Below, one piece after another: positions 13,878 through 50,667 of a DNA stretch of 64,000 nucleotides; the stretch's first letter is position 1, and every line of letters starts with the position of its first letter. The notes beneath the pieces were generated by a model. The model was given only the letters and a program-made list of their open reading frames with translations. It was not told where the DNA came from and made no database searches. This stretch comes from Meiothermus sp. Pnk-1. GTDB lineage: Bacteria; Deinococcota; Deinococci; Deinococcales; Thermaceae. Location: contig NZ_QKOB01000004.1 in the NCBI RefSeq assembly GCF_003226535.1, positions 1 to 64,000 of the forward strand. Direction: 5' to 3'. The position numbers were made by a program, and so were the translations under genes.

Positions 13878-15903
<2,026 letters not shown>

Positions 15904-15907
<4 letters not shown>

Positions 15908-25793: not shown

Positions 25794-26384
25794 CTACCAC
25801 CACGGCGCGGCCATCACGTGCCCCGGCTCGAGGCCAAGGCCCGCCAGCTTCCCCCGCAGGCTTGCGGCCTTGCGCGGGGTGGGAGCCCCCCAGCGCTGCC
25901 CCACGAAGCGCAGGGCGAAGGCCTCGACCTTGCGGGCGAGCTGGGCCACGGAGTAGCTGCCCGCGTCGTACTCGACGGCGATAGGCCCCTCCGGGGCGTA
26001 CCAGTAGGCGTCGGGTTGCTCGCGGTAGTGGATGCGGTGGGTGTCGGTGCGCCAGGAGGAGGGCGGCACCCCCAGGATATGCCGCATCTCGCCCACCCCG
26101 GCCAGGTGGCGCAGCAGGGGCGGCCCCAGCCGGGCGACCCAGAGGTAGGGGGTGAAAAAGCGCACCTCGAGGAGCCGGTTGGCGTGGTGGGAGGGGTTCA
26201 AGACCGCCCGCACCACGTGCAACCCCATGGCGTGGGCTTCCCTTTCCGAGGGCGTCACTCCGTAGTGGCGCATCAGTTGGCCCTCGCTGAGGGCCAGGTC
26301 GCAGCCCAGGGCCAGGCGGATGCACTCGAGGGCCTCCTGACGCTCACCTCCCCGCAGGACTTTGGCTTGCATCCGGTACAACAA
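25794..26384 (-). CDS. Hypothetical protein with nuclease-like C-terminal segment
   Basis: 196 aa. The TTG at 26384 has GGAGGTG 9 nt upstream; an ATG at 26372 is the alternative. The segment DTHRIHYREQPDAYWYAPEG, then IAVEYDAGSYSVAQLARKVE has the E-x-D / K spacing expected of a PD-(D/E)XK-like or replication-relaxation fold, and an HTH-like stretch precedes it (LMRHYGVTPSEREAHAMGL). It overlaps the end of the VirB10 gene by about 40 bp. It could be a DNA-processing partner replacing a relaxase accessory protein; speculative. Confidence 0.5.
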   Translation of the reverse strand: MLYRMQAKVLRGGERQEALECIRLALGCDLALSEGQLMRHYGVTPSEREAHAMGLHVVRAVLNPSHHANRLLEVRFFTPYLWVARLGPPLLRHLAGVGEMRHILGVPPSSWRTDTHRIHYREQPDAYWYAPEGPIAVEYDAGSYSVAQLARKVEAFALRFVGQRWGAPTPRKAASLRGKLAGLGLEPGHVMAAPWW

Positions 26385-28543: not shown

Positions 28544-28851
28544 TGCGCCGCCGGGTGTACCGCCTCTACCAGCCCATCACGATTGTGGGCCTCGAGCTGT
28601 GGCAGCTTCCGGTCATCGGGCTGGGCTTCGTGATCGGCCTCCGGCTCATGGAGGGGGTACACCCGGCCGCCGGGCTCCTGACGGGGGCGGTGACCGGCTA
28701 TCTGGCGCTGATGCTGGCGGAGAAGCTGCGGGAGCGCTACCCCGGGGCCTCCCTGCTACAGGAAGCGCTGTGGCTCACCCAGAGCGACCGCTACACGCCG
28801 GGGAAGGATCAGGAGACCACGCCACTTTCGATTCGTCATGACCGCGAGTAA
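28543..28851 (+). CDS. VirB3-like inner-membrane protein
   Basis: 102 aa with two N-terminal hydrophobic helices (LWQLPVIGLGFVIGLRLM; AAGLLTGAVTGYLALMLAEK) and a polar tail. Size, topology and place between virB2 and virB4 fit VirB3/TraL. Its end overlaps virB4 by 14 bp. Confidence 0.75.
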   Translation: MRRRVYRLYQPITIVGLELWQLPVIGLGFVIGLRLMEGVHPAAGLLTGAVTGYLALMLAEKLRERYPGASLLQEALWLTQSDRYTPGKDQETTPLSIRHDRE

Positions 28852-31378
28852 TACCAGCCTGCTCAACCGGCCTCGGGAGCGCACGCTCACCGAGGAGTTT
28901 CCTTACTGGGAGATCCACGAGGGGGTGATGTTCCTCGAAGACGGGCGGTGCGAGGTGGGGGTGGAACTGGTGCTCAGGCCCACCCTGCTCCTGATGCAGA
29001 GCGAGCTCGAGGGCCTGCTCTACATGGTGCGCAGCGTCCTCAGGAACGGGGTGCCCCAGGGGACGCGGGCCCGGCTCTTGGTGGAGGCGGCTCCGGCCCC
29101 CGAAGGTTCGGTCACGGCCTATAAGGAGGCCTTCGAGCCCACCCACCCCACCGCCCGGGCCATCGGCGAGGAGCGCCACCGGCACTGGCACGACCTGTGG
29201 GCCAGAGGGCAGGTGATGGAGCGGCGGGCCTTCCTTACCGTCAGCTACGGCCACAAGCGACCCCGGCGGCTCCCCTTCGGGGGGGCCGAGTTGGCCCAGC
29301 GGGTCAAGGAGGGGGCCAAAATCCGCGAGCGCATCCGCATGATCGCCAAGGGCCGGGGGGTGGAGGTGCGGGAGATGGACTCCCAGGAGGTCTTCGGCCT
29401 GGCCTACCGCTACCTCAACCCCGGCCTCCGGCAGGGCGGGGTGCCCCGCTACCGCCCCACCTGGCAGCGCTACCCGCGCAAAGCGGTGGAGAAGATGCCG
29501 GGCCTCAGGCCCCCCACCCTGCGCACCCAGCTCCTGCGCAGCGAGGTGGACAACTCCTTCCGCGAGGCCCTCTACGTGGGGGGGCGCTGGCTCGGCATGT
29601 TCACCCTCTACACCATCCCCGACGAGACCTACACCGAGATGGGGGACGTGCTGGCCCTGGCCGGAGGGGGGGAGTTCTACCTGGTGGTGGACTTCTACCA
29701 CGAGCCCTACGAGAAGGCCCTCAAGGCGCTCAAGGCGCGGGCGCGGCGCTTCTACGCGGCCAGCGCCAACACCGAGACCTACGTGGACCCCAACATCCTG
29801 GTGGGGCAGCGGGAGACCGAGGGGGCCATCCAGCACATCTCCCAGTCTGGTGACCACGTCTACCGGGTGGGGGTGGCCCTGATCCTGATCGAGAAGGAGC
29901 GGGAGGCCCTGGAGCGCCGCTCGAACCAGGTGGTGGGGCGGCTTTCGGAAATCCCCGGCAACCCCTTCCGGCAGCTCAGGAACGGGCTCTTCGAGCCCTG
30001 GAAGAGCCGGGCCCCCTTCGGCGGGGGGATGAGCGACGAGGTGGTGAGCCTGCTGGAGTCCAACGCCGCCGACCTGGTGCCCCTCACGGGGGCCTGGAAG
30101 GGGCACGAGAAGCCGGTGGTCATGTTCCACAACCGCTTCCTCTCCCTCACCCGCTTCGACCCCTTCACGCCCTCCACCGCCAACTGGAACGGGATCATCG
30201 CGGGCGGCTCTGGCTCGGGCAAGACCTTCTTCACCCAGTACGTGCTCTCGGATTTGCTCCGACGCGACGAGGTGGACGTGGTGATCCTCGACCGGGGGAA
30301 GAACTACGAGGCGCTGGTGGAGGCCTTCGGCGGGGTGTTCATCGACATCCGCCCGGGCGGGGAGACGGCGGTGAACATGTTCGACCTGGAGGAGGGGGAG
30401 GCCGAGCCGGGCCCCGAGAAGCTTCAGGACGTGCTGCGCTTCTTGCGGGCCATCCTGCCGCCGGGGGAGGACCGCACCGAGGAGGCCGTCGAGAACGCCA
30501 TCCTCGAGGCGGCCATCGAGCAGACCTACAAGCGCGCGAGCCCCGACCTGCCCCAGCCGGACGGGAGCTACAGGAAGGTCTACCAGGGAGCCAGGCTCTC
30601 CGACCTGGTGCAGACGCTGGTGCTGCTGGACGAGGTGGGCAGCCGCCCGGCCTCCTCCTCGGAGAAGGAAGTGGCGCGGAAGCTGGCCCTCAGGCTTCAG
30701 TCCTGGGTGGGCGACAGCCCCAAAGGGCAGTTCCTCGACCGGCCCACCAACGTGCCCCTCTCCGAGGCGCGGGTGGTGTGCTACGAGCTCGAGGGGCTCA
30801 AGGACGACCTGGAGATCATCGGCACCCTGCTGATCGCCGACCTGGTCTGGAAGCGGGCCAAGCGGCAGAAGGACGGCAGGGGGCGGCGGGTGCTGGTGGT
30901 GCTGGACGAGGCCTGGAAGGTCTTCCAGAGCCCCTACGCCAGCCGCCTCATCGAGGAGCTGTACCGGCGCTTCCGCTTCCTGGGCGGGGGCATCTGGAGC
31001 ATCACCCAGAGCCTGGCCGACTTCGCCGGGGAGGGCCCCCGGGCCTTGCTGGCCAACACCAGCTTCCACTTCCTGCTCCGGCTCTCCCGGGGCGAAGCCG
31101 AGCTACAGGTGATGCGCGAGGTGCTGGGGATGCCCGACCGGGCCATCGCGGTGCACGAGCGGCTGACCGGGGTCAAGGGGGTCTACTCCGAGGCCCTGGC
31201 CTGGATTCGCACCGGCGAGGGCAAGGAGGGCGAGGTGATCGTGGTGCGGCCCAGCCCGGTGGACTACTGGCTGTTCACCTCCACCAAGGAGGAGGTGGCC
31301 CGCAGGCGGGAAATGGTGCGCAAGTACGGCGACGTGATGCGGGCGGTGCGGGCGCTGGCCTACGGAGAAGAAACATGA
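28838..31378 (+). CDS. VirB4 family T4SS ATPase
   Basis: 846 aa cytoplasmic ATPase that powers pilus assembly and transfer. Walker A GGSGSGKT at residues 456-463 in the context GIIAGGSGSGKTFFTQY, Walker B VLVVLDEAWKVF, and the downstream GGGIWSITQSLADF segment typical of VirB4. The N-terminal CagE/TrbE-type region spans about residues 20-420. The stop overlaps the next ATG (ATGA). Confidence 0.92.
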   Translation: MTASNTSLLNRPRERTLTEEFPYWEIHEGVMFLEDGRCEVGVELVLRPTLLLMQSELEGLLYMVRSVLRNGVPQGTRARLLVEAAPAPEGSVTAYKEAFEPTHPTARAIGEERHRHWHDLWARGQVMERRAFLTVSYGHKRPRRLPFGGAELAQRVKEGAKIRERIRMIAKGRGVEVREMDSQEVFGLAYRYLNPGLRQGGVPRYRPTWQRYPRKAVEKMPGLRPPTLRTQLLRSEVDNSFREALYVGGRWLGMFTLYTIPDETYTEMGDVLALAGGGEFYLVVDFYHEPYEKALKALKARARRFYAASANTETYVDPNILVGQRETEGAIQHISQSGDHVYRVGVALILIEKEREALERRSNQVVGRLSEIPGNPFRQLRNGLFEPWKSRAPFGGGMSDEVVSLLESNAADLVPLTGAWKGHEKPVVMFHNRFLSLTRFDPFTPSTANWNGIIAGGSGSGKTFFTQYVLSDLLRRDEVDVVILDRGKNYEALVEAFGGVFIDIRPGGETAVNMFDLEEGEAEPGPEKLQDVLRFLRAILPPGEDRTEEAVENAILEAAIEQTYKRASPDLPQPDGSYRKVYQGARLSDLVQTLVLLDEVGSRPASSSEKEVARKLALRLQSWVGDSPKGQFLDRPTNVPLSEARVVCYELEGLKDDLEIIGTLLIADLVWKRAKRQKDGRGRRVLVVLDEAWKVFQSPYASRLIEELYRRFRFLGGGIWSITQSLADFAGEGPRALLANTSFHFLLRLSRGEAELQVMREVLGMPDRAIAVHERLTGVKGVYSEALAWIRTGEGKEGEVIVVRPSPVDYWLFTSTKEEVARRREMVRKYGDVMRAVRALAYGEET

Positions 31379-32742
31379 GAAAGCTCTTTTTCCTGCTTTT
31401 GCTCCTTCCGGGGATAGCCCTGGCCCAGGACTACTTCATCGACCTGTCCCCTACCCCGGTTTCGCTGGCCCCGGGGAAGAGCGCCAAGGCCACGCTGGCG
31501 GTGCTGCCGGATGGGTTTACCGGAACGCTCCCCATCGCCGTCACCGGGCTGCCCCAGGGGGTGACCTACAGCCCCACCAGCATCACCGTCTCGGACCCCA
31601 AGAAGAACGCCACGGTGGATATGGTCTTCACGGCGGCGGCCAACGCCCCGACCAGCTCGAGCGCCGCCAAGATCACCGTGGGGCAGAAGACCTACTTCTT
31701 CAGCGTGGTGGTGGACCCGGCGGCGGAGCCCCCCTCCCAGAACCCGGCCGGCCTCGAGGCCATCTGGAACCAGGTGCAGCAGTGGGGAAGCACGGCCTGC
31801 GCCACCATCAACGCCTTCAGCCTGGAGAGCGTGCGCTGGGTGTGCACCCTCTACCGCACCCTGAACCGGGCGGTGGGGATGTGGGACGAGGTGAAGCAGG
31901 ACTTTGACATGCTCAAAAAGGAAGGCTTCATCACCGGGGTGAGCTACCTGGTCAACGGGCTGGGGGCGGAGCTGGGGCTGGCCCAGGCCAACGCGGGGGT
32001 GGATCAGCTCGAGCGGGACTTCCTCGCCCTCAGGCGCAACTACCGCCAGATGGTGGCCAAGATTTCCACCTGGCTGGCCCGGGTGCGAGAGAAGCAGGTC
32101 GAGGCCATCCAGAACAACCCCTACCCCAACGGCAGCCCCTCGTGGTGGGCGGTGGAGGCCATCAAGCTCAACCCCAACCTGTTGCTGAGCGAGCTCGATA
32201 CCTTGCGCGCGCAGGAGAGATTGGCCAAGCTACGGACCAAGGTCGAGGCCAACGCAGCGGCGGCGGAGAAGCAGGTCGAGAACGCCACCAACCAGACCCA
32301 GGACGACCTCTCCAAGGCCCTCCAGGTCACCAACCCCCTGCCCTCACAGGAGGGCGAGGCCGAGCAGGTGGTGCGGCGGGCCAAGGAGGCCAACTCCACC
32401 CGCGAGGTGCTGGAGGTGCTGGTGGACGCGCAGGCCAAGATCATGCGGCAGAACCTGACCAACACCCAGGACGTGGTGGCGGCGGTGCGGCAGACTGCCG
32501 CCCAGCAGGCCTACACCACCCAGCAGCTCACCAACCTGATCGAGATCGAGCTCCAGCGGCGGGCCGACGAGGTCAACGCCTGGAAGGCCGAGGTGGAGCG
32601 AACCATGGCCGAGGTCAGCGAGGAGGCCGCGGACCAGACCGCCAACCTCAGGATGCTGGCCACCCTCTCCCGCACGGTGGCCTGCCCGGACGGGGTGCTG
32701 GGGCCGGGGCAGGACGGGACGGTCACCTGCATCCGCCCGTAG
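31375..32742 (+). CDS. Secreted coiled-coil protein, VirB5-position
   Basis: 455 aa. Signal peptide MRKLFFLLLLLPGIALA, then an Ig-like beta domain (SPTPVSLAPGKSAKATLAVL), and a long helical region (about 180-430) with coiled-coil character and a Cys pair (STACATINAF, VRWVCTLYR). VirB5/TrbJ proteins are secreted, helical and lie between virB4 and virB6, which supports the call. The extra N-terminal beta domain is unusual for VirB5. The frame is open far upstream inside virB4, but the ATG at 31375 is set by the ATGA overlap and signal peptide. Confidence 0.65.
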   Translation: MRKLFFLLLLLPGIALAQDYFIDLSPTPVSLAPGKSAKATLAVLPDGFTGTLPIAVTGLPQGVTYSPTSITVSDPKKNATVDMVFTAAANAPTSSSAAKITVGQKTYFFSVVVDPAAEPPSQNPAGLEAIWNQVQQWGSTACATINAFSLESVRWVCTLYRTLNRAVGMWDEVKQDFDMLKKEGFITGVSYLVNGLGAELGLAQANAGVDQLERDFLALRRNYRQMVAKISTWLARVREKQVEAIQNNPYPNGSPSWWAVEAIKLNPNLLLSELDTLRAQERLAKLRTKVEANAAAAEKQVENATNQTQDDLSKALQVTNPLPSQEGEAEQVVRRAKEANSTREVLEVLVDAQAKIMRQNLTNTQDVVAAVRQTAAQQAYTTQQLTNLIEIELQRRADEVNAWKAEVERTMAEVSEEAADQTANLRMLATLSRTVACPDGVLGPGQDGTVTCIRP

Positions 32743-32751
32743 GAGGCCACG

Positions 32752-34143
32752 GTGCGTAGGTTTGTTCCCATCTTCCTGATGATCCTGGTGGGGCTGGCCG
32801 GGGTGGCCCTGGCCGACGATCCTCAGGTGCCGCCGCCCAGCGGCACCGCGCAGCAGCAGAGCCTGGTCCAGAGCTTCTTTGACCTCTCGCGCTGGCTCCA
32901 GAGCATCAGCCGCGACCTGGGCCGCCTGGAGAGCGGGATTTCGGGGCTGGCCCTGGCCCTGGTGATGCTGGGGTTCGTCTACGGCATAGTCCAGGGAATC
33001 CTGGGCGGCGGCCTGGAGGCCATCAAGGGGGCCTTCACGCGGCTGGCGGTGGTGGGGCTGCTGCTGTCGCTGTTCAACAGCGGCTTCGTCGGCAATACCG
33101 TGAACGGGGCTATGGAGAAAGCGCGGGAGTGGGGCACCGACTCGATGACGGCCACCCTCTCCGACGCCGGGGATAGCCTCGACGCGCTGGCCATGCGGAT
33201 CATCCCCTTCATGGGGGCGGTGGGGGCGGTCAAGGTCATGACCGCGAAGGTCGCTGAGAACGCGGCCAAGAGCGCGGTCACCCGGTCGGTCGCCTCCGGG
33301 ACAGGCGCAGGGGCGGGCAAGGTGCTCCAGTACCTCAACTGGACCACGCTGCTCCTGATTCCGCTGATGCTGTTCTTCTTCATCCTCATCGTGGTGGCCT
33401 CGTTCACGGTGCAGGTGGGCCTGGCCCTGTTCCCACTGGCCGCAGCCCTGCTCATCTTCCCCAGGGGTTCAGCGGCGGACTGGTTTGGCAAGTGGGTGGC
33501 GGCGGTGATGGGGGCGCTGCTCATCGTGATCCTGCTGCCCATCGGCTTCAAGGCGGCGGTGGAAATCGGGATCAACCGTCCAGTGTACCTGGTCAACAGC
33601 CACGTGGACCAGGCGCTGGACAAGATGAAGGCGGTCAAGGAGAAGAGCGAGGAGGCCTTGGAGGTGGCTAAAAGTGACGAAAACTGCGGCCTCAATCCGT
33701 TGTGCGCCCTGGGGGCTAAATTCGACGCGGCGAAGACCGAACTGACCCTAGCGCTACAGGCGTTGCAGACGGTGGTCACGGCCTGGCTGCTGGGGGTTCT
33801 CCTGTTGCTGTGCGGCATGGCGGCGGCGGGCTACATCATGTTCAACGTCGAGCGGGTGGCCATGAGTTTCATCGGCGGCTTCGTGGCTACCGGCGTGCGC
33901 CAGATGATGGGCACGGCCTCCCTGGGCGGGCGGGTGTACAGCGGGGGCGCGGCGGCGCAGGGTGGAACCGCAAGCCCCGCAAACCCGTCTGTTGTCCAGG
34001 TCAACCCGCGCCCGGTGAGCTACGATATACAGCCCTACTACGGGTACAGCCAGGGCGAGGTGATCGAGGGCGAGTGGAGGCCGGTGCGGGAGTTGCCCAA
34101 CCCCGCGCCGCGCGGCCTGCCCGAATCGTCCAGCGATAGCTAA
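32752..34143 (+). CDS. VirB6/TrbL-like polytopic membrane protein
   Basis: 463 aa. Signal or anchor at the start, then several hydrophobic helices (GLALALVMLGFVYGIVQGIL; LLLIPLMLFFFILIVVASFT; VGLALFPLAAALLIF; MGALLIVILLPIGF; TAWLLGVLLLLCGMAAAGYI) and a glycine-rich polar tail. TrbL/VirB6 forms the inner-membrane pore of the T4SS. GTG start with GGAGG upstream, 9 bp after the VirB5-like gene. Confidence 0.8.
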   Translation: MRRFVPIFLMILVGLAGVALADDPQVPPPSGTAQQQSLVQSFFDLSRWLQSISRDLGRLESGISGLALALVMLGFVYGIVQGILGGGLEAIKGAFTRLAVVGLLLSLFNSGFVGNTVNGAMEKAREWGTDSMTATLSDAGDSLDALAMRIIPFMGAVGAVKVMTAKVAENAAKSAVTRSVASGTGAGAGKVLQYLNWTTLLLIPLMLFFFILIVVASFTVQVGLALFPLAAALLIFPRGSAADWFGKWVAAVMGALLIVILLPIGFKAAVEIGINRPVYLVNSHVDQALDKMKAVKEKSEEALEVAKSDENCGLNPLCALGAKFDAAKTELTLALQALQTVVTAWLLGVLLLLCGMAAAGYIMFNVERVAMSFIGGFVATGVRQMMGTASLGGRVYSGGAAAQGGTASPANPSVVQVNPRPVSYDIQPYYGYSQGEVIEGEWRPVRELPNPAPRGLPESSSDS

Positions 34144-34162: not shown

Positions 34163-34390
34163 ATGGAACTGAACACTTCTGATCTGATCGAAGGCAAGGA
34201 GCTGCTCGGACGCTGGTTCACCCACCGGGGCCGCGACTGCGTGGTGCGGGCGGTGGGCAAGGTACAGGAAACGCCCGGTCGGGCCGGGAATGAGGTGGGC
34301 ACCTGGCAGCTCGAGGTGGACGGGCAGGTCCTCGAGCGGGTCTACGGCACCCTGGACGCGGCCACCCGGAGGTTGGCAGAACGGGTATGA
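34163..34390 (+). CDS. Small hypothetical protein before virD4
   Basis: 75 aa, soluble (LLGRWFTHRGRDCVVRAVGK). A GAGGAA ribosome site supports the ATG at 34163 over the TTG at 34151. It overlaps virD4 by 4 bp. Role unknown; possibly a coupling-protein accessory. Confidence 0.6.
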   Translation: MELNTSDLIEGKELLGRWFTHRGRDCVVRAVGKVQETPGRAGNEVGTWQLEVDGQVLERVYGTLDAATRRLAERV

Positions 34391-36648
34391 GCGTGGCCCG
34401 GCGGCAGTCCCTGCTGGAAGTCCCCACCTCCCAGAAGCTCCTACGGTTTCTGGGAGGCTTGGTCATTCTGGGCACCCTGGCCGGAGCCCTCTGGCTGGTG
34501 GCGCAGAGCGCAATGGAGGTGGCCTCGCAGATGATGCGGGCCGGGTGGGGCGGCCCTTTGAAGGCGGCTTCGCCCGGGGAGCTGATCCTGCGCTGCAACA
34601 CCGACTTCACCGGCGGTTGCTCGCGGCTGTTCAACGAGCTCTGGCAGAAGGCCCTGCCGCTGGACACCCTGCGGCTGGTGGTGGCGGCGGGGTTCGCCCT
34701 GGGGATGCTGCCCTTCCTGATCCGCCCGCGCCGCCCGCGCAAGCTGCCGGGGCAGGGGCGCTGGGCCACCGCCAAAGACCTGGCGGGCTACCTGGGCGAG
34801 AAGGGAACCGGCTGGTACGGCCTGTTCGAGGGCAAGCCGCTACGGGTGCCCCCCATGGAGCGGCGCACCGGGACGCTGGTGGTGGGCAAGCCGGGCGGGG
34901 GCAAGACCACCGGCTACTACCAGCCGAACCTGCTGCTGGACGCCCGCGACGGCTGGAGCGCGGTCGTGTTCGACCTCAAGTGGCCCGACGAGGGCGGGCT
35001 GATGGAGGCGGTGAGCTACTACCGCCACTTCGGGCGGGCGGTGTACACCTATACGCCCTTTGCCGAGGGCTCGGCCCGGATCGCCCTGCTGGAGGGGGCC
35101 GAGAACCCCCAGGAAGCCTCCAACATCGCCGACATCCTGGTGCCCCGGGTGGCCGACGGGGGGGCGGAGTTCTACGCCAACCTCGAGCGGATGCTGCTGG
35201 CCGGGCTGGTCTGGATCGAGGGGCAGGAGGGGCGCTACTCCCTGCGGCACATCCTCGAGGTGCTGCGGCAGGGCAAGGAGGAGCTCAAAGCCTACGCCGA
35301 GGTGCGCCCGCACCTCAAAGAGCGGATCGGGGCGGTCTTGCAGACCCGGGAGGACATCCTGGCGGGAGTGGTGGCGGGGCTGGCGGGGAAGCTGGCCCTC
35401 TTCGAGAACGACCGCCTGGACGCCTCGAGCCTGCCCGGGACGGGGGCCGTGCCCTGGGAGCGCTTCTTCGGCGAGCCCAGCCTGCTCTACATCGGCATCC
35501 CCCAGGAGCACCTGGAGGGGGGCAAGGCCACGGCCCTCTTGTGGCTGGTCAAGCGCATCCTGGACCGGGAAATCCACCGGGCCGCGGCCCGGGGCGGGGG
35601 GACGCTCAAGACCCTCACCTCGGTCTACCTCGACGAGTTCACCGCCTTCGGCAAGCTCCCCGGCATCGAGGACAACCTCAAGACCATGCGCTCGAAGGGG
35701 GCAGCCTTCCACATCAGCGTGCAGAACCTGGCCAACGGGCGCTCGGTGTACGGGCGGGACGTGTGGGAGAGCATCCAGGGCACCTTCGGGCAGCAGGTGT
35801 ACCTGCTCGAGCGCCTCTCGGAGGAGGACCGCAAGTGGCTGGCCCGCACGCTGGGCTACGAGACGGTGGTGGGGTACTCAAGAAGTTCCTCCAAAAGCGG
35901 CTTCCTCTCGGGCAGCGAGGGAGAGGGGGAGCGCGAGGAGGCCCGCTTCCTGCTCTCGGCCGAGGAGATGCGCGAGGTCAAGAAGGGCGAGACGGTGGTG
36001 ATCCTCGACGGCAAGCCGCCGGTGCGCACCTACCTGGGGGGGATGTGGGAGCGGCGGCACCCCCTGCACGCCCTGTACGAGAAGGCCAGAAGGCTCAGGG
36101 CGGGACAGGGCGGGACTCCCGCGCCGCGCCCTGAGCAGGCCGCCGAACCGCCCGCACCGCTACCCCACGCTCCGCTCGGTGAAACTACGCCACCTTCGCC
36201 GCCGGTGACCGGGGATCCAGAAGCCAGCGATCCCCGCAGCCTGGAGTCTTACATTCGCCGCCTGGCGTCCACGATGCCGGTGTTTCAGCGCTACTACCAC
36301 AAGAAGACCACCACCGGGATTCGCTTCGTGCTGCCCGAGGGCTTCCCCCCGCCCGAGACCGCCTGGGTGCGGGAGGGCTGGGTCGAGGTGCGGGGCCAGA
36401 AGGAGCTCTCGCTCAACCTCACCAGCCGGGGGCTGGAGGCCCTGGAGAAGCCTTTCGTGGCGGCGCTGGTGCGTTGGTGCCGGGTGCGGGAGTGGGCGAG
36501 GCGGCAGGGCGTGGACGGCCAGGCCGAGGTCTGCATGAGCGGCGAGGAGGCCGAGACCGTCCTGCGGGAGTACGCGAAGAAGCTCCCCACGGAAGAAGGA
36601 AAGGTGCGGGTGGCGGTGCGGCTGGAGGCCCTGGGAGATGGAGCTTGA
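34387..36648 (+). CDS. VirD4/TraG-type coupling protein
   Basis: 753 aa. Two N-terminal membrane helices (FLGGLVILGTLAGALWLVAQ; LRLVVAAGFALGMLPFLI), Walker A GKPGGGKT at residues 167-174, Walker B VYLDEFTAFGKLPGIEDNL and the ISVQNLANG segment typical of VirD4. It couples the DNA substrate to the T4SS channel. The C-terminal about 200 residues (from about 590) are an added domain not usual in VirD4, with a Pro-rich linker first. Confidence 0.92.
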   Translation: MSVARRQSLLEVPTSQKLLRFLGGLVILGTLAGALWLVAQSAMEVASQMMRAGWGGPLKAASPGELILRCNTDFTGGCSRLFNELWQKALPLDTLRLVVAAGFALGMLPFLIRPRRPRKLPGQGRWATAKDLAGYLGEKGTGWYGLFEGKPLRVPPMERRTGTLVVGKPGGGKTTGYYQPNLLLDARDGWSAVVFDLKWPDEGGLMEAVSYYRHFGRAVYTYTPFAEGSARIALLEGAENPQEASNIADILVPRVADGGAEFYANLERMLLAGLVWIEGQEGRYSLRHILEVLRQGKEELKAYAEVRPHLKERIGAVLQTREDILAGVVAGLAGKLALFENDRLDASSLPGTGAVPWERFFGEPSLLYIGIPQEHLEGGKATALLWLVKRILDREIHRAAARGGGTLKTLTSVYLDEFTAFGKLPGIEDNLKTMRSKGAAFHISVQNLANGRSVYGRDVWESIQGTFGQQVYLLERLSEEDRKWLARTLGYETVVGYSRSSSKSGFLSGSEGEGEREEARFLLSAEEMREVKKGETVVILDGKPPVRTYLGGMWERRHPLHALYEKARRLRAGQGGTPAPRPEQAAEPPAPLPHAPLGETTPPSPPVTGDPEASDPRSLESYIRRLASTMPVFQRYYHKKTTTGIRFVLPEGFPPPETAWVREGWVEVRGQKELSLNLTSRGLEALEKPFVAALVRWCRVREWARRQGVDGQAEVCMSGEEAETVLREYAKKLPTEEGKVRVAVRLEALGDGA

Positions 36649-36847
36649 GGCGCGGGAGTTCTGGCGGCTGCTGGAGCACGCCACCTGGGTGGTGTGGGAG
36701 GGGCCGCTCTGCTTCGTGTGGCTTCCCGGCGAGGGTGGCCGAGTATTCCGATACGAGGATGCTCGTGTGGTGGTGCTGGCCGAGGGCGAAGCGGCCCTTG
36801 AAGTGGCCCGCCGGATGGGGGTGAAGGATGCGCTGGCTGTGGCTTAG
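36638..36847 (+). CDS. Small hypothetical protein after virD4
   Basis: 69 aa soluble protein (LEHATWVVWEGPLCFVWLPG). Start ATG at 36638 with GGAG immediately before it, overlapping virD4 by 11 bp and the next gene by 20 bp. Unrecognised. Confidence 0.55.
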   Translation: MELEAREFWRLLEHATWVVWEGPLCFVWLPGEGGRVFRYEDARVVVLAEGEAALEVARRMGVKDALAVA

Positions 36848-37319
36848 TTTGCTGCTGGCGACGGGGATGGCGCAGGAGAGCGCGCCTGCCCTCTCGGAAG
36901 CCGAGGTGACCCGGCTCCTGGCCGCCGCCCGCAGCGAGGTGCTCCTGGAGATGAGCGTCTTCGACGACCGCGCCGTGGCCGAGGGCTACCGGGTGGCGGT
37001 GGGCGAGCGGGGGGCCAGGGGGTACATCCTCACCCGGGGGGACACCGCCGAGATCGGGGCGTCTTACCTCCCCTGGGCCTCCATCCTGAGCGGGACGGGG
37101 GCAAGACTGCTGGCCTACACCCGGGGGGACTACGTGGTGGTGGACCGCCAGGTGGCCGTCATCCGCGAGACGCGGATGGGGCTGCCGGTCTACCGGCTGG
37201 AGGAGAACCCGGGCCGGGTGGCGGCCCTGGTGCGGCAGTTCGTGGACGCCTACAGGGTGGCCCGCCCCTACTCGGTGGAGGGGCTGGTGCGACGTAGCGC
37301 GCAGAAATACGTGAGGTAG
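36828..37319 (+). CDS. Secreted protein resembling a degenerate phospholipase D half
   Basis: 163 aa with a short signal peptide (LLLATGMA-Q). The rest follows the order of one PLD half-domain: LLAAARSEVLLEMSVFDDRA, a central strand-turn, then LLAYTRGDYVVVDRQVAVIR where an HxKxxxxD motif would be, and a helix VAALVRQFVDAYR. The His and Lys are absent (R, D), so catalysis is unlikely. Similar layouts occur in the genes at 40828, 41415 and 42760. Inference from pattern only. Confidence 0.45.
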   Translation: MRWLWLSLLLATGMAQESAPALSEAEVTRLLAAARSEVLLEMSVFDDRAVAEGYRVAVGERGARGYILTRGDTAEIGASYLPWASILSGTGARLLAYTRGDYVVVDRQVAVIRETRMGLPVYRLEENPGRVAALVRQFVDAYRVARPYSVEGLVRRSAQKYVR

Positions 37320-37322
37320 CGA

Positions 37323-37571
37323 GTGGAACGAGTCATGCGCATCGCAGGTTGGGCCGGAGTGGTGGTAGGGCTTTCGGGCGTGCTGCCGGGGGTTTTTCTT
37401 CTCCGGGGAGGCATGATCGAGTTCGGCATGGTGCTCTTGTTGCTGGGGGCCATCCTGCTGACACACGTAGAGGTGCTCGAGGAGATGCGGCAGGTGCGGC
37501 GGGCGCTGGCCCGGATCGCCCTGCATACCGAGCGGCCTCCGGCTCCGAAGGAGGAGGCCAGTGTTGATTGA
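37323..37571 (+). CDS. Small two-helix membrane protein
   Basis: 82 aa. Two hydrophobic stretches (MRIAGWAGVVVGLSGVLPGV; MIEFGMVLLLLGAILLTHVE) and a polar coiled tail. GTG start at 37323, 3 bp after the previous stop. Unknown T4SS accessory. Confidence 0.6.
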   Translation: MERVMRIAGWAGVVVGLSGVLPGVFLLRGGMIEFGMVLLLLGAILLTHVEVLEEMRQVRRALARIALHTERPPAPKEEASVD

Positions 37572-37827
37572 CGAGCAAGGGCAGGGGGTGGGCGCATTCA
37601 CCCTGGAGGAGTGTGGCCACTCCGGGCGGCTGCTGTGGTTGGCGACCTGGGCCGCCGGGCGGTTCGGCCTGGGGGCGGAGTTCGTGGACGGGGCTCGCCT
37701 GCACGACGTGGGCAAGCTGTATGTACCGCGTTACGACCTGCTGAAGAGACCGCTCGACGAGTTCGAGGAGAGCGTGGTGCGCTTCCACGTCCTGGAGTAC
37801 CTGGAGGCGGAATGGCCCGACTGTTAG
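37561..37827 (+). CDS. Mini HD-domain protein
   Basis: 88 aa. [14 protein letters not shown] and [20 protein letters not shown] give the H...HDxGK core of HD-GYP phosphodiesterases, including the KP that follows. The GYP half and downstream ligands are missing, so it is either a stripped regulatory binder or inactive. It overlaps both neighbours (11 and 16 bp), so it is translated as part of the transfer operon and is not an obvious relic. Confidence 0.6.
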
Positions 37828-38270
37828 CCCTGCTGGTCCTGGCCTCGTGGGGGCTGGCCTGTGGCCGCATCCCCCCTGACCTGGCGGGCTGGGCGGCCTA
37901 CTACGCCCGGGGCTACGGCCTCGACCCCGACCTGCTGGTGGCGCTGGTCTGGGTGGAGAGCCGCTTCTGCCCCGATGCGGTCTCCCCCGAAGGGGCGGTG
38001 GGACTGGGGCAGATCATGCCCGCGACCGGGAAGGCCATCGGCATCTCGCAAGAGCGCCTGGCCCACCCGCAGTGGAACCTGTGGGGTACGGCCCGGCACC
38101 TGCGGCAGCTATGGGACAGCTTCCGGGACTGGAGGTTAGCCCTCGCCGCCTACAACGCCGGGAGCGGCGCGGTGCGCAAGTACGGGGGCATTCCCCCCTA
38201 CCCCGAAACGCAGAAATACGTGAGGGACGTGCTATGGGTGTACCGGTGGTTGAAGAACAGAAAAGCGTAA
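37812..38270 (+). CDS. VirB1-like lytic transglycosylase
   Basis: 152 aa. Signal peptide ([14 protein letters not shown], possible lipobox cysteine 17). SLT domain with catalytic glutamate in [34 protein letters not shown] and [14 protein letters not shown]. It opens peptidoglycan for the transfer channel. The start at 37812 overlaps the HD gene, and the end overlaps the ATPase gene by 37 bp. Confidence 0.88.
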
Positions 38271-39199
38271 TCCGGGTACACGAGCGCTTCCCGGAGGAGT
38301 TCGCCCGGCTCATGGAGCGGCTGCCCCCCTGGGTGCGGGTGGAGGTGGAGGGGCACCGGGACAGCCTGGACGAGATCGTGCTCGACCTGGGCAAGCCCCT
38401 GATCTACACGGCGGCGGATCAGGTCTACGTCCTGGAGGGGCGGGAGGTGTCGAAGGACGACCTCTCCTACCTGACCCACCGTCTGGGCGGGTTCAAGGAG
38501 AACAACCGGGCCGGGCTCGAGGGCACCCTGCACCGCGTCAGCCGCATCCAGGACGCCTACGGCGAGACGGTGGGAGTGACCATCCGCATCGGGCGCTTCG
38601 TGATGGGGGTGGCGGAGGCGCTCCGGCCCTGGCTCGAGCAGAGCGGCTCGCTGCTGGTGGTGGGGCCGCCCCGCACCGGCAAGACCACCCTCTTGCGGGA
38701 CATCGTGCGTATTCTGGCCGGGCGCTACGGTCCCCGGGTGGCGGTGGTGGACACCTCCAACGAGATCGGAGGGGACGGCAAGCTCACCCACCCCGGCATC
38801 TCCCCGGCCCGGCGGCTCCAGGTGCCCGATCCGCCCTCGAAGAACCAGGGCTGGGTGATCTACCAGGCCATCGCCAACCACTCGCCCGAGGTGGTGGTGG
38901 CCGACGAGATCGGCTACAACGAGGACGTGTTCCAGTGCCTCACCGCCTCGAGGCGGGGGGTGCGGGTGGTGGCCACCGCCCACGGCGAGACCATCCTCGA
39001 CCTGCTGGAGAACCCGGTGCTGCTGCCCATCCTGGGCGACCCGGAGGGTGGCAGGCGCAGAAGCCGCCCCTCCTTCGCGATGTGCCTGGAGGTGCGGGGC
39101 AAGGGGAAGTTCGTGCTCTACCCCGAGTTTGCCGAGGCCCTGGACACCCTGCTGTCGGGGGGTGAACCCGAGGGCTTGCGACTGGGGAGGTGGGATTGA
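38234..39199 (+). CDS. Ycf45/SpoIIIAA-type secretion ATPase in the VirB11 position
   Basis: 321 aa. Walker A GPPRTGKT at residues 144-151. The adjacent segments [53 protein letters not shown] and [17 protein letters not shown] follow the Ycf45/SpoIIIAA family rather than VirB11, whose Asp and His boxes differ. SpoIIIAA is itself a distant VirB11/GspE relative that energises a secretion-like channel. By context it probably acts as the T4SS assembly/secretion ATPase. The ATG at 38234 lies inside the transglycosylase gene; the frame open further upstream is not conserved-looking. Confidence 0.8.
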
Positions 39200-40827: not shown

Positions 40828-41418
40828 ATGCGCTGGACGTATGCACTGGTACTGACGGTTTTCCTCGGAGGAGGAAGCCTGGCCATTGACGCCAAGGACT
40901 TCAAGACCGCCTATGACCTCCTGCGCAACGGGCTGTGCAGCCTCAAGATCACCTGCTTGCTGCCCAAGGACATGATCTACCCGGCGGACTGGCAGGCCGA
41001 TGTGGAGGCGCGGCTGGCCCGGGCGCGGGAGGTGCTGCTCATCGGGGACGTGCAGTCCTTCCAGCCGGTCCTGGGCTACCTCGACGCCTGGCTCAGGACC
41101 ACCGACCCCACCCGCAAGCAGAACCGCCCGCAAATCTTTGCGGTGGTGCCCCAGGAGCAGATGGTGTGGTTTCGCGGCTGGACGGAGAACCCCGAGCTGG
41201 CCGGACTGGTGAAGGTGGCGGCGAGCAGCAACGAGAACGAGCCCCTGGGGGTGGTGGGGCGCACCGGGCTACCCCTGCTGATCCTCGATAACCAGGCGGT
41301 CTACCTGCCCACCTGGTGGCAGCTCGAGGGCCCCACCCTGCGCCAGGTGCTCACCTGGGGGCGGCTGCTGGTGGACCAGATCAGGGCCGCCAACCAGCGC
41401 AAAGAGGAGGTCAAATGA
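40828..41418 (+). CDS. Secreted protein, PLD-fold-like (degenerate)
   Basis: 196 aa with signal peptide (LVLTVFLGGGSLA). Layout: ARAREVLLIGDVQSFQPVLG, RPQIFAVVPQEQMVWFRG, then RTGLPLLILDNQAVYLPTW in the place of an HKD motif, lacking His and Lys. The stop overlaps the next ATG. It probably belongs to the same exported group as 36828 and 41415. Confidence 0.45.
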   Translation: MRWTYALVLTVFLGGGSLAIDAKDFKTAYDLLRNGLCSLKITCLLPKDMIYPADWQADVEARLARAREVLLIGDVQSFQPVLGYLDAWLRTTDPTRKQNRPQIFAVVPQEQMVWFRGWTENPELAGLVKVAASSNENEPLGVVGRTGLPLLILDNQAVYLPTWWQLEGPTLRQVLTWGRLLVDQIRAANQRKEEVK

Positions 41419-41819
41419 GGCTTCTGGCCCTGCTGCTTCTTCTGGGGGCGGCGTTTGCCCAGGGGCAGCAGCAAATCCTCTTCCAAACCCCCAACCTGGC
41501 CCAGGCGGTGGGTTGGGTGGCGGGCGTGGGGGGACAGGACGCCCTGGTGATCGGCGACCTGCCCGACCCCGCCTTCGCCCGCGCCCTGCCGCCCCGCACC
41601 CGCGTCCTGGTCTCGGGGGCCCTGCCCTCGTGGGTCAGGACCGGGATGGAGGTGCGTTACCTCAAGGGGCTCAGGGGCCGGGGGATGCTGCTCATCGACC
41701 GGAGGTATTTCGTGGTGAGGGACAAAAAGGGTCTATGGACGGTACTGGCCAGCCCGGAGATCGGGATGCAGGTGGCCTACTACCTCGAGCAGCTCTGGCA
41801 GATGGGAGGGCGGGGATGA
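41415..41819 (+). CDS. Short secreted protein, PLD-fold-like (degenerate)
   Basis: 134 aa with a signal peptide (LLLLLGAAFA-Q). GGQDALVIGDLPDPAFARAL, LKGLRGRGMLLIDRRYFVVR and a final helix MQVAYYLEQLW parallel the end of the 36828 protein. No catalytic HKD. The start at 41415 is fixed by an ATGA overlap. Confidence 0.45.
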   Translation: MRLLALLLLLGAAFAQGQQQILFQTPNLAQAVGWVAGVGGQDALVIGDLPDPAFARALPPRTRVLVSGALPSWVRTGMEVRYLKGLRGRGMLLIDRRYFVVRDKKGLWTVLASPEIGMQVAYYLEQLWQMGGRG

Positions 41820-43986: not shown

Positions 43987-45387
43987 ATGCTTTCACGAGA
44001 ACAGCGTTCGCGTCTGGCAAAAACCGCCCTCTCTGTCTGGAGCGCCAGTCTAGGGCTGGCCCTGGCCCAGCAGGCCCCCTTCACGGATGTCCCCCCCACC
44101 CTGGAGGACATCCGTTTCCTCTATCAGAAGGGCATCGTGCAGGGCTACCCCGACGGCACCTTTCGGGGGCGTGAGTATATGACCCGCTATCAGGCCGCCG
44201 CCATGCTCTACCGGGCCTACCTGGTCTTCGCCGACGACGTGGCGCGCCGGGTGAGGGAGGCCCTGGCCCAGGACTCCCAGGCCCGGCTCGAGGAGGCTTT
44301 CGCGGCCATCCGTGACCTTCAGGAGGCCCTGAAGATCGTGCAGGAGGCGATGGCGGACTACCCCGAGGTCAGGGCCGACCTGGAGGAGACCCGCAAGAAC
44401 GTGGAGGGGCTGGCCGAGGAGCTGGCCCAGGTCTCGAGCCAGATGGTCACCCGCGAGGAGATCGGCGACCTCATGGCCTCGGTGGGCGCGCTGGAGGGAC
44501 TCATCCAGCGGGGTGAGGAGGGCCTGAAGGCCCTCCAGGCCCGGGTGAACGTCCTCGAGGGGGCCTTGCGGGACCTCGAGGGGCGAATCCAGGCCGGGCA
44601 GGGGGAGCTCAACAAGAAGGTCTTCGACCTTGGCGGGCGGGTGGACGCCCTGGAGAAGGGGGGCCGGAACCGTCCGAAGCTCAGCGTGGGGGGTTCGGTC
44701 GGCCTCTCGGACGGACAGCCGGACGGGGAGGTGTTCGTCCGGGGTGAGGCGAACGGGGTACGGCTCGCCGGACGGGTGAACCCGGACGGGGTACAGGTAC
44801 GGGCCGAAGGGGGCGGGCTCACCCTCGAGCACGTCCAGAAGGACGGGCTCTCGGAGAGCCGGGCCGGGTATCGGCTGTTCGAGGGGGTGGCCCTGGGGCT
44901 GGAGGTGGGCTACGGCGACTCGACCTTCGGGGTGGCCCGGCTCATCCACGAACCGGACGGGGGCCTGATCCCCGGGGTGGTGGCCGAGGCCGGGGCGGGC
45001 GCGGGCTTCCACGAGGGCAGCCTCTCGCGCAACCTGCTCTTCGTCCGGGCGGGCTACCGCTTCGGCGGCGTGACCCCCAGCCTGGGGTACTGGCGCTACC
45101 AGGGCGAGGAGCCCTACAGCCTGCTGGAGGGGCGGCTGGACTGGCAGGCCGACTTCGGCAGCCTCGGGGGGTACTACCGGCTGGTGGCCTTCCCCGGAAG
45201 CGGAAACAGGGGCAGCGAGTGGGGGGTGCGCTTCACCTCGAGCGCCAACCCCTTCGTGGAACTCGGGGTGCGGGGTACGGAAGGGCTGGTGGCCGGTGAG
45301 CCAGGCAGCTTCAGCTTCCGCTACCAGAACGCCACGGCCAGCCGGACGGACTTCACGGTGCGGGTGGGGTACAGGCTGGAGTTCTAG
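43987..45387 (+). CDS. S-layer-homology outer-membrane porin (SlpA/OmpM-like)
   Basis: 466 aa. Signal peptide (about 1-28), one SLH domain (FTDVPPTLEDIRFLYQKGIV, then QGYPDGTFRGREYMTRYQAA), a long coiled coil (about 85-220) and a C-terminal beta-barrel-like region ending in an aromatic residue (RVGYRLEF). In Thermus and Deinococcus such SLH proteins tether the outer envelope to peptidoglycan-bound polymers. Presence in an ICE is unusual and suggests remodelling of the surface for mating or exclusion. It has its own promoter region. Confidence 0.8.
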   Translation: MLSREQRSRLAKTALSVWSASLGLALAQQAPFTDVPPTLEDIRFLYQKGIVQGYPDGTFRGREYMTRYQAAAMLYRAYLVFADDVARRVREALAQDSQARLEEAFAAIRDLQEALKIVQEAMADYPEVRADLEETRKNVEGLAEELAQVSSQMVTREEIGDLMASVGALEGLIQRGEEGLKALQARVNVLEGALRDLEGRIQAGQGELNKKVFDLGGRVDALEKGGRNRPKLSVGGSVGLSDGQPDGEVFVRGEANGVRLAGRVNPDGVQVRAEGGGLTLEHVQKDGLSESRAGYRLFEGVALGLEVGYGDSTFGVARLIHEPDGGLIPGVVAEAGAGAGFHEGSLSRNLLFVRAGYRFGGVTPSLGYWRYQGEEPYSLLEGRLDWQADFGSLGGYYRLVAFPGSGNRGSEWGVRFTSSANPFVELGVRGTEGLVAGEPGSFSFRYQNATASRTDFTVRVGYRLEF

Positions 45388-50316: not shown

Positions 50317-50667
50317 GCTACTGAAGGTTCGCAACGCCGGGCGGGTCCGCCCGGCGTTGCCGGCTGCGGAGAACTCGACGCTTCTCCAAGGGCCAGGGCG
50401 CCCGTATGAGGATGCGCCTGCCGTCGTATATCTGTTGGCGGTAGACGTCGGACCCTGCGTAAGCGCGCTGACCGGAACGGAGGTATGCGGGCCTTAAAAA
50501 CACGACCGCGGCCATACATAACACCTAGACACCTAACCCCCCTTGCGGGGGGCTTCGGTGCAGGAAGTAAAACCATCAGCACTCGGCTGTGGCAGCCTTC
50601 GCAGGCGTCCTCAGTATGTCACTTCTTATTGCCGTTATCAAGTATTATATTCCCAGGAGGTAAAGCC
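50317..50667. other. 351-bp intergenic region with two strong hairpins
   Basis: A 14-bp perfect stem (50331-50344 with 50347-50360, 2-nt loop) follows the vWA gene, and a G6/C6 hairpin lies at 50537-50552. Between them I see no tRNA or gene. The last 30 bp carry an AT-rich stretch (TATTAT near 50643) and AGGAGG for the next gene. Confidence 0.5.
50331..50360 (+). terminator. Hairpin after the vWA lipoprotein gene
   Basis: GCAACGCCGGGCGG and its exact complement separated by GT. It is very stable but has no T-run, so it may be a terminator that relies on the stem or an mRNA 3'-end stabiliser. Confidence 0.6.

Follow-up and report, generated by a model that had tools for sequence, protein, structure and literature searches.

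Most Gram-negative type IV secretion systems (T4SSs) are credited with three ATPases, of which VirB11 is one. Which ATPase holds that place in the conjugation systems of the Deinococcota is the question raised by a locus of Meiothermus sp. Pnk-1, in which a gene at 38234–39199 encodes an ATPase within a row of T4SS genes. The window analysed here is the whole stretch of 64,000 nucleotides that holds this gene (contig NZ_QKOB01000004.1, positions 1 to 64,000, forward strand). A preliminary description of the same DNA had assigned the ATPase to the Ycf45/SpoIIIAA type rather than to VirB11, placed it in the VirB11 slot of a T4SS, taken it for a family adopted as a conjugation motor and seen in it a link to sporulation-channel ATPases. 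It held that a tree placement or best hits within VirB11, or a separate VirB11, would speak against this, and it proposed a structure prediction and a survey of Deinococcota elements.

The ATPase gene and the operon around it

Between 28.2 and 39.2 kb of the window the genes run in the order VirB2, VirB3-place, VirB4, P1, P2, VirD4, three small ORFs, VirB1 and the ATPase (Table 1), and several adjacent pairs overlap or nearly touch. R388 has the same order B2-B3-B4-(B5 place)-(B6 place). Of the components by which a conjugative T4SS is recognized, VirB4, VirD4, a VirB2 pilin and VirB1 are present, and the ATPase does adjoin VirB1 and secreted proteins as the preliminary description had it (SLT 84 bits), with VirB4 and VirD4 also nearby. 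VirB4 scores 175 bits on the F-type TraC model TIGR02746 against 90 bits on VirB4_CagE, both scores lying below the curated cut-offs. Profile searches gave no family match for the VirB3-position protein, for relatives of P2 or for other operon proteins, and P1 and P2 are putative equivalents of VirB5 and VirB6 by position and topology only. Among the operon proteins scanned there was no family match to the VirB8/VirB9/VirB10 core complex, although distant homologues may escape such profile scans. For a relaxase the only candidate is a weak Replic_Relax match at 25794–26384. The SLH-domain protein downstream is kept beside the ATPase in Thermus plasmids.

Two further features of the window were noted in passing. 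The small secreted proteins at 36828–37319, 40828–41418 and 41415–41819 appear by eye to have phospholipase-D-type folds, without a family match. Past the T4SS region, the gene at 50485–51387 matches sigma-70 region 3 and may be an element-borne sigma factor; a similarly annotated gene occurs on Thermus plasmids.

Table 1. Features of the window and, in the last row, related partial ORFs elsewhere
Feature	Coordinates	Strand	Basis
Large serine recombinase, candidate integrase of the element	14282..15907	-	PF00239, PF07508, PF13408
Replication-relaxation-type protein, possible relaxosome part	25794..26384	-	PF13814 26.9 bits, cut-off 25.3
VirB2/TrbC pilin, 113 aa	28202..28543	+	PF04956 38.9 bits, cut-off 27.9
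VirB3-position small membrane protein, 102 aa	28543..28851	+	Place between VirB2 and VirB4
VirB4 ATPase, closest to F-type TraC	28838..31378	+	PF19044 81.6 bits
P1, secreted, VirB5 position	31375..32742	+	Signal-like N terminus; conserved between VirB4 and P2
P2, polytopic membrane protein, 7 hydrophobic segments, VirB6 position	32752..34143	+	Topology, conserved position
VirD4/TraG coupling ATPase	34387..36648	+	PF02534 78.8 bits, PF10412, PF12696
Small secreted protein, 163 aa	36828..37319	+	Conserved between VirD4 and ATPase, Deinococcus included
Two-segment membrane protein, 82 aa	37323..37571	+	Topology, locus comparison
88-aa ORF	37561..37827	+	Present only in closest elements
VirB1-type lytic transglycosylase, 148 aa	37824..38270	+	PF01464 SLT 84.5 bits
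Ycf45/SpoIIIAA-superfamily secretion ATPase, 321 aa	38234..39199	+	PF19568 67 bits, tree, AF2 fold, dN/dS
Walker A, GPPRTGKT	38663..38686	+	Direct reading and alignment
Asp-box equivalent, DTSNEIGG, Ycf45-type	38750..38773	+	Alignment
Walker B, ADEIG (residues 223-227)	38900..38914	+	Alignment
His box, ATAHG region	38972..38986	+	T248, H250 invariant (alignment)
Secreted element protein, 544 aa	39190..40824	+	No family match
Secreted element protein, 196 aa	40828..41418	+	Locus comparison
Secreted element protein, 404 aa	42760..43974	+	Locus comparison
SLH-domain and coiled-coil protein, candidate envelope anchor	43987..45387	+	PF00395 41.6 bits
C-terminal-half ORFs of the ATPase	G043:C18:30270-30677; G038:C2:724446-724853; G028:C52:2033-2440; Meiothermus taiwanensis plasmid NZ_CP021131 267977-268354		

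The ATPase ORF opens with ATG, has 37 nt in common with the 3' end of the VirB1 gene, and overlaps at its own end the start of the next gene at 39190. Its GC content by codon position (0.71/0.44/0.93) is what a coding sequence in a GC-rich genome typically shows. The true start may lie slightly downstream of the annotated ATG, since the N termini of relatives align at about residue 11–12 and residues 1–11 are disordered in the AF2 model. The ORF and the motifs earlier quoted from it, ADEIG included, are all present; a 10-residue motif occupies residues 173–182 and ARRLQVPDP residues 192–200. In a 13-sequence alignment the Walker A, Asp, Walker B and His boxes are all invariant, G144, G149 and K150 of Walker A among them. 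With dN/dS values of 0.09–0.135 against four close relatives (about 0.1), the ATPase is under purifying selection.

Family and predicted fold of the ATPase

Pfam PF19568 (Spore_III_AA) matches the ATPase with 67 bits against a gathering cut-off of 27 bits, which places it in the SpoIIIAA/Ycf45 superfamily. On T2SSE, the model of the VirB11/GspE/PilT family, it reaches 14 bits, below the cut-off of 24.9, and it is absent among the matches listed for the VirB11 model TIGR02788 (cut-off 250 bits), on which R388 VirB11, our positive control, scores 295 bits. On the NCBI SpoIIIAA model TIGR02858 it scores 96.7 bits and falls short of the equivalog cut-off of 281, while the true SpoIIIAA proteins scored here reach 377–380. 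The Asp box separates the families further: it reads DTSNEI in element and Ycf45 proteins, DERSEIAG in SpoIIIAA and IEDxxE in VirB11.

The name Ycf45 stands for ATPases with an R3H domain that occur in cyanobacteria, plastids, Chloroflexota and other groups. The window ATPase carries the DTSNEI(A/G)GDG Asp box of Ycf45 and has its nearest sequence relatives there; element and Ycf45 proteins share 35–46% identity, the DTSNEI box, a DEIG Walker B, a THG His box and an R92/H100/R101 linker motif. They differ in length, Ycf45 proteins of this set having mostly about 475–660 aa and element ATPases about 310–390 aa, and in the C-terminal tail with PTPase and R3H domains, which the Ycf45 of Scytonema (the one tested) possesses and the element proteins do not; a Pfam scan of the window ATPase found neither domain. 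With SpoIIIAA the window ATPase shares the superfamily and the layout of an N-terminal part and an ATPase part, but it has DTSNEI in place of DERSEIAG and GPPxxGKT in place of SPPxxGKT. Nor is the setting that of a spoIIIA operon, as the neighbours are T4SS genes and no other sporulation genes were seen in the element. To judge from its sequence, then, the window ATPase is Ycf45-like rather than SpoIIIAA proper, so that of the supposed sporulation-channel link only shared superfamily ancestry stands, and the SpoIIIAA identity itself (97 of 281 bits) falls away.

We built a family tree of 83 sequences comprising VirB11, PilT/PilB, SpoIIIAA, Ycf45 and element ATPases. A long branch with support 100/99 has VirB11 and PilT/PilB on one side and SpoIIIAA, Ycf45 and the element ATPases on the other, and a position of the window ATPase within VirB11, PilT or GspE was not found in this tree. 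Ycf45 and element rows stand apart from SpoIIIAA (96/83), with the exception of L116, an element row on a long branch that lies outside this group. Chromosomal Ycf45 proteins form their own clade (100/100) outside of which the element rows fall, and the tree does not settle whether the latter are a single lineage. A tree constrained to hold the element ATPases and VirB11 together is worse by 40 log units (AU p 0.02). In profile scores, motifs and tree position alike, VirB11 and the element ATPase are different families, and on this point the preliminary description was borne out by both best hits and tree.

A search of PDB sequences returned no solved relative of the ATPase. Its AlphaFold2 model (pLDDT 88.5, pTM 0.85) aligns over residues 28–321 with PilT/PilU, DotB, PilB, GspE and CpaF (Z 16–18) and over residues about 24–298 with VirB11 HP0525 (Z 14–16), so both lobes align to PilT, DotB, GspE and VirB11. 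The protomer is thus predicted to be two-lobed, like PilT, DotB or VirB11, and the N-terminal lobe and RecA-like lobe with four boxes that mark the secretion ATPase superfamily are both there in predicted fold and alignment. Because the Z-scores are tied across several secretion ATPase families, the fold is silent on which of these the ATPase works like.

Distribution in the Deinococcota and the search for a VirB11

A tblastn search of the ATPase family across 72,556 plasmid records found relatives on Deinococcota plasmids only, plus the Ycf45 of Scytonema and the SpoIIIAA of Pusillibacter; two further matches, with E above 0.1, were rejected as relatives. Iterative profiles over the collected loci revealed the same gene cluster in Thermus, Meiothermus-like genomes, Allomeiothermus, Oceanithermus and Deinococcus. 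At 31 of the 39 loci, VirD4 is followed on the same strand and within 7 kb (median distance about 1.2 kb) by the ATPase gene, and at four others this gene adjoins VirB4-P1-P2. Among the listed loci with relatives, at least 80 from genomes and nine viral, L131 and L132 are the only ones with adjoining T4SS genes, and both are of the Deinococcota type. L131, a Thermus-type T4SS in a Hydrogenophilus MAG (JAOAEZ010000015.1), was considered as a case of spread to Proteobacteria and set aside: it is probably mis-binned, being a MAG contig with a sequence nearly identical to a Thermaceae copy (L107).

We then turned to 111 genomes of the window's phylum. Surveys at phylum and at order level covered this same set, so Deinococcus itself appears to be represented chiefly by plasmid records. 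Of the 111 genomes, 23 carry the ATPase, 25 carry VirB4 and 23 carry both (Fisher p 8e-22, a value that overstates independence given the kinship of the genomes). The two apparent counterexamples with VirB4 and no ATPase (G003 and G096) are uninformative, because their VirB4 contigs, of 7.7 and 15.9 kb, end before the position of VirD4 and the ATPase. Pairing of the ATPase with VirB4 is a rule in the Deinococcota, and the proposed survey thus ended in a fixed association of ATPase and T4SS (23/23 with VirB4). One genome, a single 3.1-Mb contig, holds the element, so some copies are integrated.

Co-inheritance of the genes is seen as well. Over 20 loci, distances between ATPases track those between VirB4 proteins with r 0.976 and those between VirD4 proteins with r 0.947 (Mantel 0/5000 each); VirB4 and VirD4 track one another with r 0.981, a correlation about as tight as that of the ATPase with VirB4. 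At three loci (L018, L127, L117) the ATPase still adjoins VirB4-P1-P2 although the stretch lacks a VirD4, an arrangement that speaks for a link with the channel and not with the coupling protein. Three orphan copies (L015, L016, L115) have neither VirB4 nor VirD4 within reach, and chromosomal Ycf45 outside these elements is represented in the 111 genomes only by fragments and one orphan contig.

Several divergent or partial forms were encountered. At L117 (G041:C444, 3696–4946) a divergent ATPase with a damaged Walker A (GPGSRKT) and the Asp box DTSGEV lies beside an otherwise intact VirB4-P1-P2. ORFs of 165 aa that correspond to the C-terminal half of the ATPase, without Walker A, recur in the Thermaceae as remnants or a split form (Table 1). 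The genome from which the window comes carries a second, truncated relative of 151 aa without T4SS neighbours (G000:C18:17327–17704; L002, L123). Seven IMG/VR contigs (L211–L217) encode Ycf45-type proteins and no T4SS genes, and the three of them that were tested form a tight group near Chloroflexota.

A VirB11 equivalog over cut-off was found in 0 of the 111 genomes. Seven of 11 complete Deinococcota plasmids have no other T2SSE-family match over cut-off, and the other four have PilB/PilT-like genes tens of kilobases away from the ATPase. The window's own genome has three T2SSE matches over cut-off, two in pilus-type genes that lie 150 kb off on the window's contig and a third on a different one. 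As candidates for a separate VirB11, these and the matches on the four plasmids were rejected, since they are PilT/PilB (97/87 clade); there is none in the window element, nor did the wider sample yield the VirB11 that would have spoken against the preliminary description. On pMESIL02, pOCEPR01, pDEIPR02 and D. gobiensis P2 (L081–L084, L088–L091), several have their own PilB and PilT type ATPases, which suggests plasmid-borne type IV pili alongside the T4SS on several of them.

One published assignment bears on this search. Plasmid pTA69 of Thermus aquaticus was described as a conjugation plasmid in which virB1, virB2, virB4, virB6 and virD4 were named in one cluster and 'virB11' was assigned to gene pTA69-34 (PMC4605624). 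Its conjugation system is the same T4SS as that of the window element. By order-matched numbering (VirB1 13, VirD4 16, VirB4 20) the ATPase would be about gene 11, unnamed in that report, and we found no T2SSE-family match elsewhere on the plasmid, genes near 34 included. These results call the published virB11 assignment into question. DNA donation in Thermus also occurs by transjugation (TdtA, ICETh1); there the ATPase is of the HerA/FtsK type, and T4SS homologues are absent (PMC5365140).

Role of the ATPase

We consider it probable (about 0.7) that the protein serves a conjugative T4SS specific to the Deinococcota as its third ATPase, belongs to the Ycf45 branch of the SpoIIIAA/Ycf45 superfamily and occupies the position held by VirB11 in other Gram-negative systems. 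Behind this reading are its family and position, its near-perfect co-occurrence and co-inheritance with VirB4, the lack of a VirB11, the conserved motifs and purifying selection. Like VirB11, TrwD and DotB, it has a predicted two-lobed fold, a gene setting of VirB genes and VirD4, and the standing of a third T4SS ATPase. The ATPase would form a hexamer that binds the VirB4 ring from the cytoplasmic side, and its ATP hydrolysis would drive assembly of the VirB2 pilus and/or switch the channel to DNA transfer; at the base of this ring it may thus play the part known from VirB11 and DotB. As to adoption as a conjugation motor, the preliminary description agrees with the position, the co-inheritance, the intact catalytic motifs and the predicted fold, from which we infer both the adoption and the motor role. 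We lean, by somewhat better than even odds, towards regarding the Deinococcota T4SS as a conjugation machine in a class of its own, whose hexameric motor beneath VirB4 is a recruited Ycf45-branch ATPase that has replaced VirB11.

VirB4 is closest to F-type TraC, and F systems work without VirB11, so a third ATPase is in principle dispensable. The ATPase may instead be an accessory addition: an F/TraC-like ancestor would never have had VirB11, and the protein would serve another step such as envelope assembly, DNA processing or regulation. The preference of VirB4 for TraC (175 over 90 bits) is consistent with such an origin, as is the absence of VirB11 from F systems and all Gram-positive T4SSs stated in a 2025 review (PMC12857230). 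The Ycf45 family is, moreover, widespread without T4SSs, and chromosomal Ycf45 elsewhere, unlike the element ATPases, does not lie beside T4SS genes, which implies a different role for the family at large. The three orphan copies and the damaged Walker A at L117 also count against the motor reading. Against an accessory role, the ATPase has the two-lobed fold, as predicted, and all four secretion-ATPase boxes, as in VirB11 and PilT, and its tight distance correlation with VirB4 and retention in clusters without VirD4 suggest a role in the channel. We regard the accessory explanation as the main alternative, though a less likely one. The term 'VirB11 slot' is right by position, but the system may descend from a VirB11-less, F/TraC-like T4SS.

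Far less probable is a gene without any role in transfer, either carried along as cargo or left behind by a host as a stranded Ycf45. Orphan copies and fragments do exist, but linkage to the T4SS contradicts this: there is no chromosomal Ycf45 in the 111 genomes save fragments and one orphan contig, presence tracks VirB4 in 23 of 23 and dN/dS is about 0.1. Lowest of all we place a very diverged true VirB11 that merely resembles Ycf45; operon position and the common superfamily fold would fit it, whereas the 100/99 branch parting VirB11 and PilT/PilB from SpoIIIAA, Ycf45 and the element proteins, the AU p of 0.02, the Ycf45-specific Asp box and the below-cut-off T2SSE and VirB11 models all argue against it.

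The reading as a third T4SS ATPase from the Ycf45 branch means that Deinococcota conjugation systems use an ATPase family other than VirB11. In the 2025 T4SS review, Thermus and Deinococcus are unmentioned and the VirB11 passages name no substitute ATPase (PMC12857230), and our literature search found no paper naming both SpoIIIAA and VirB11. A resemblance of SpoIIIAA to type II/IV secretion ATPases has been described (PMC2703783), and the element ATPase gives the old idea that SpoIIIAA works like one of them a concrete case. The papers found on Ycf45, judged by title and abstract, appear to be mostly plastid genome reports, with no functional study among them. Ycf45 is kept in cyanobacteria and plastid genomes, and a relative that sits on plasmids, is genetically tractable and is linked to a defined machine gives direct access to the function of Ycf45-type ATPases. 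If replacement of VirB11 is the true history, this would be the first Ycf45-family protein with a known machine, and it would show SpoIIIAA/Ycf45 ATPases to be able to substitute for VirB11.
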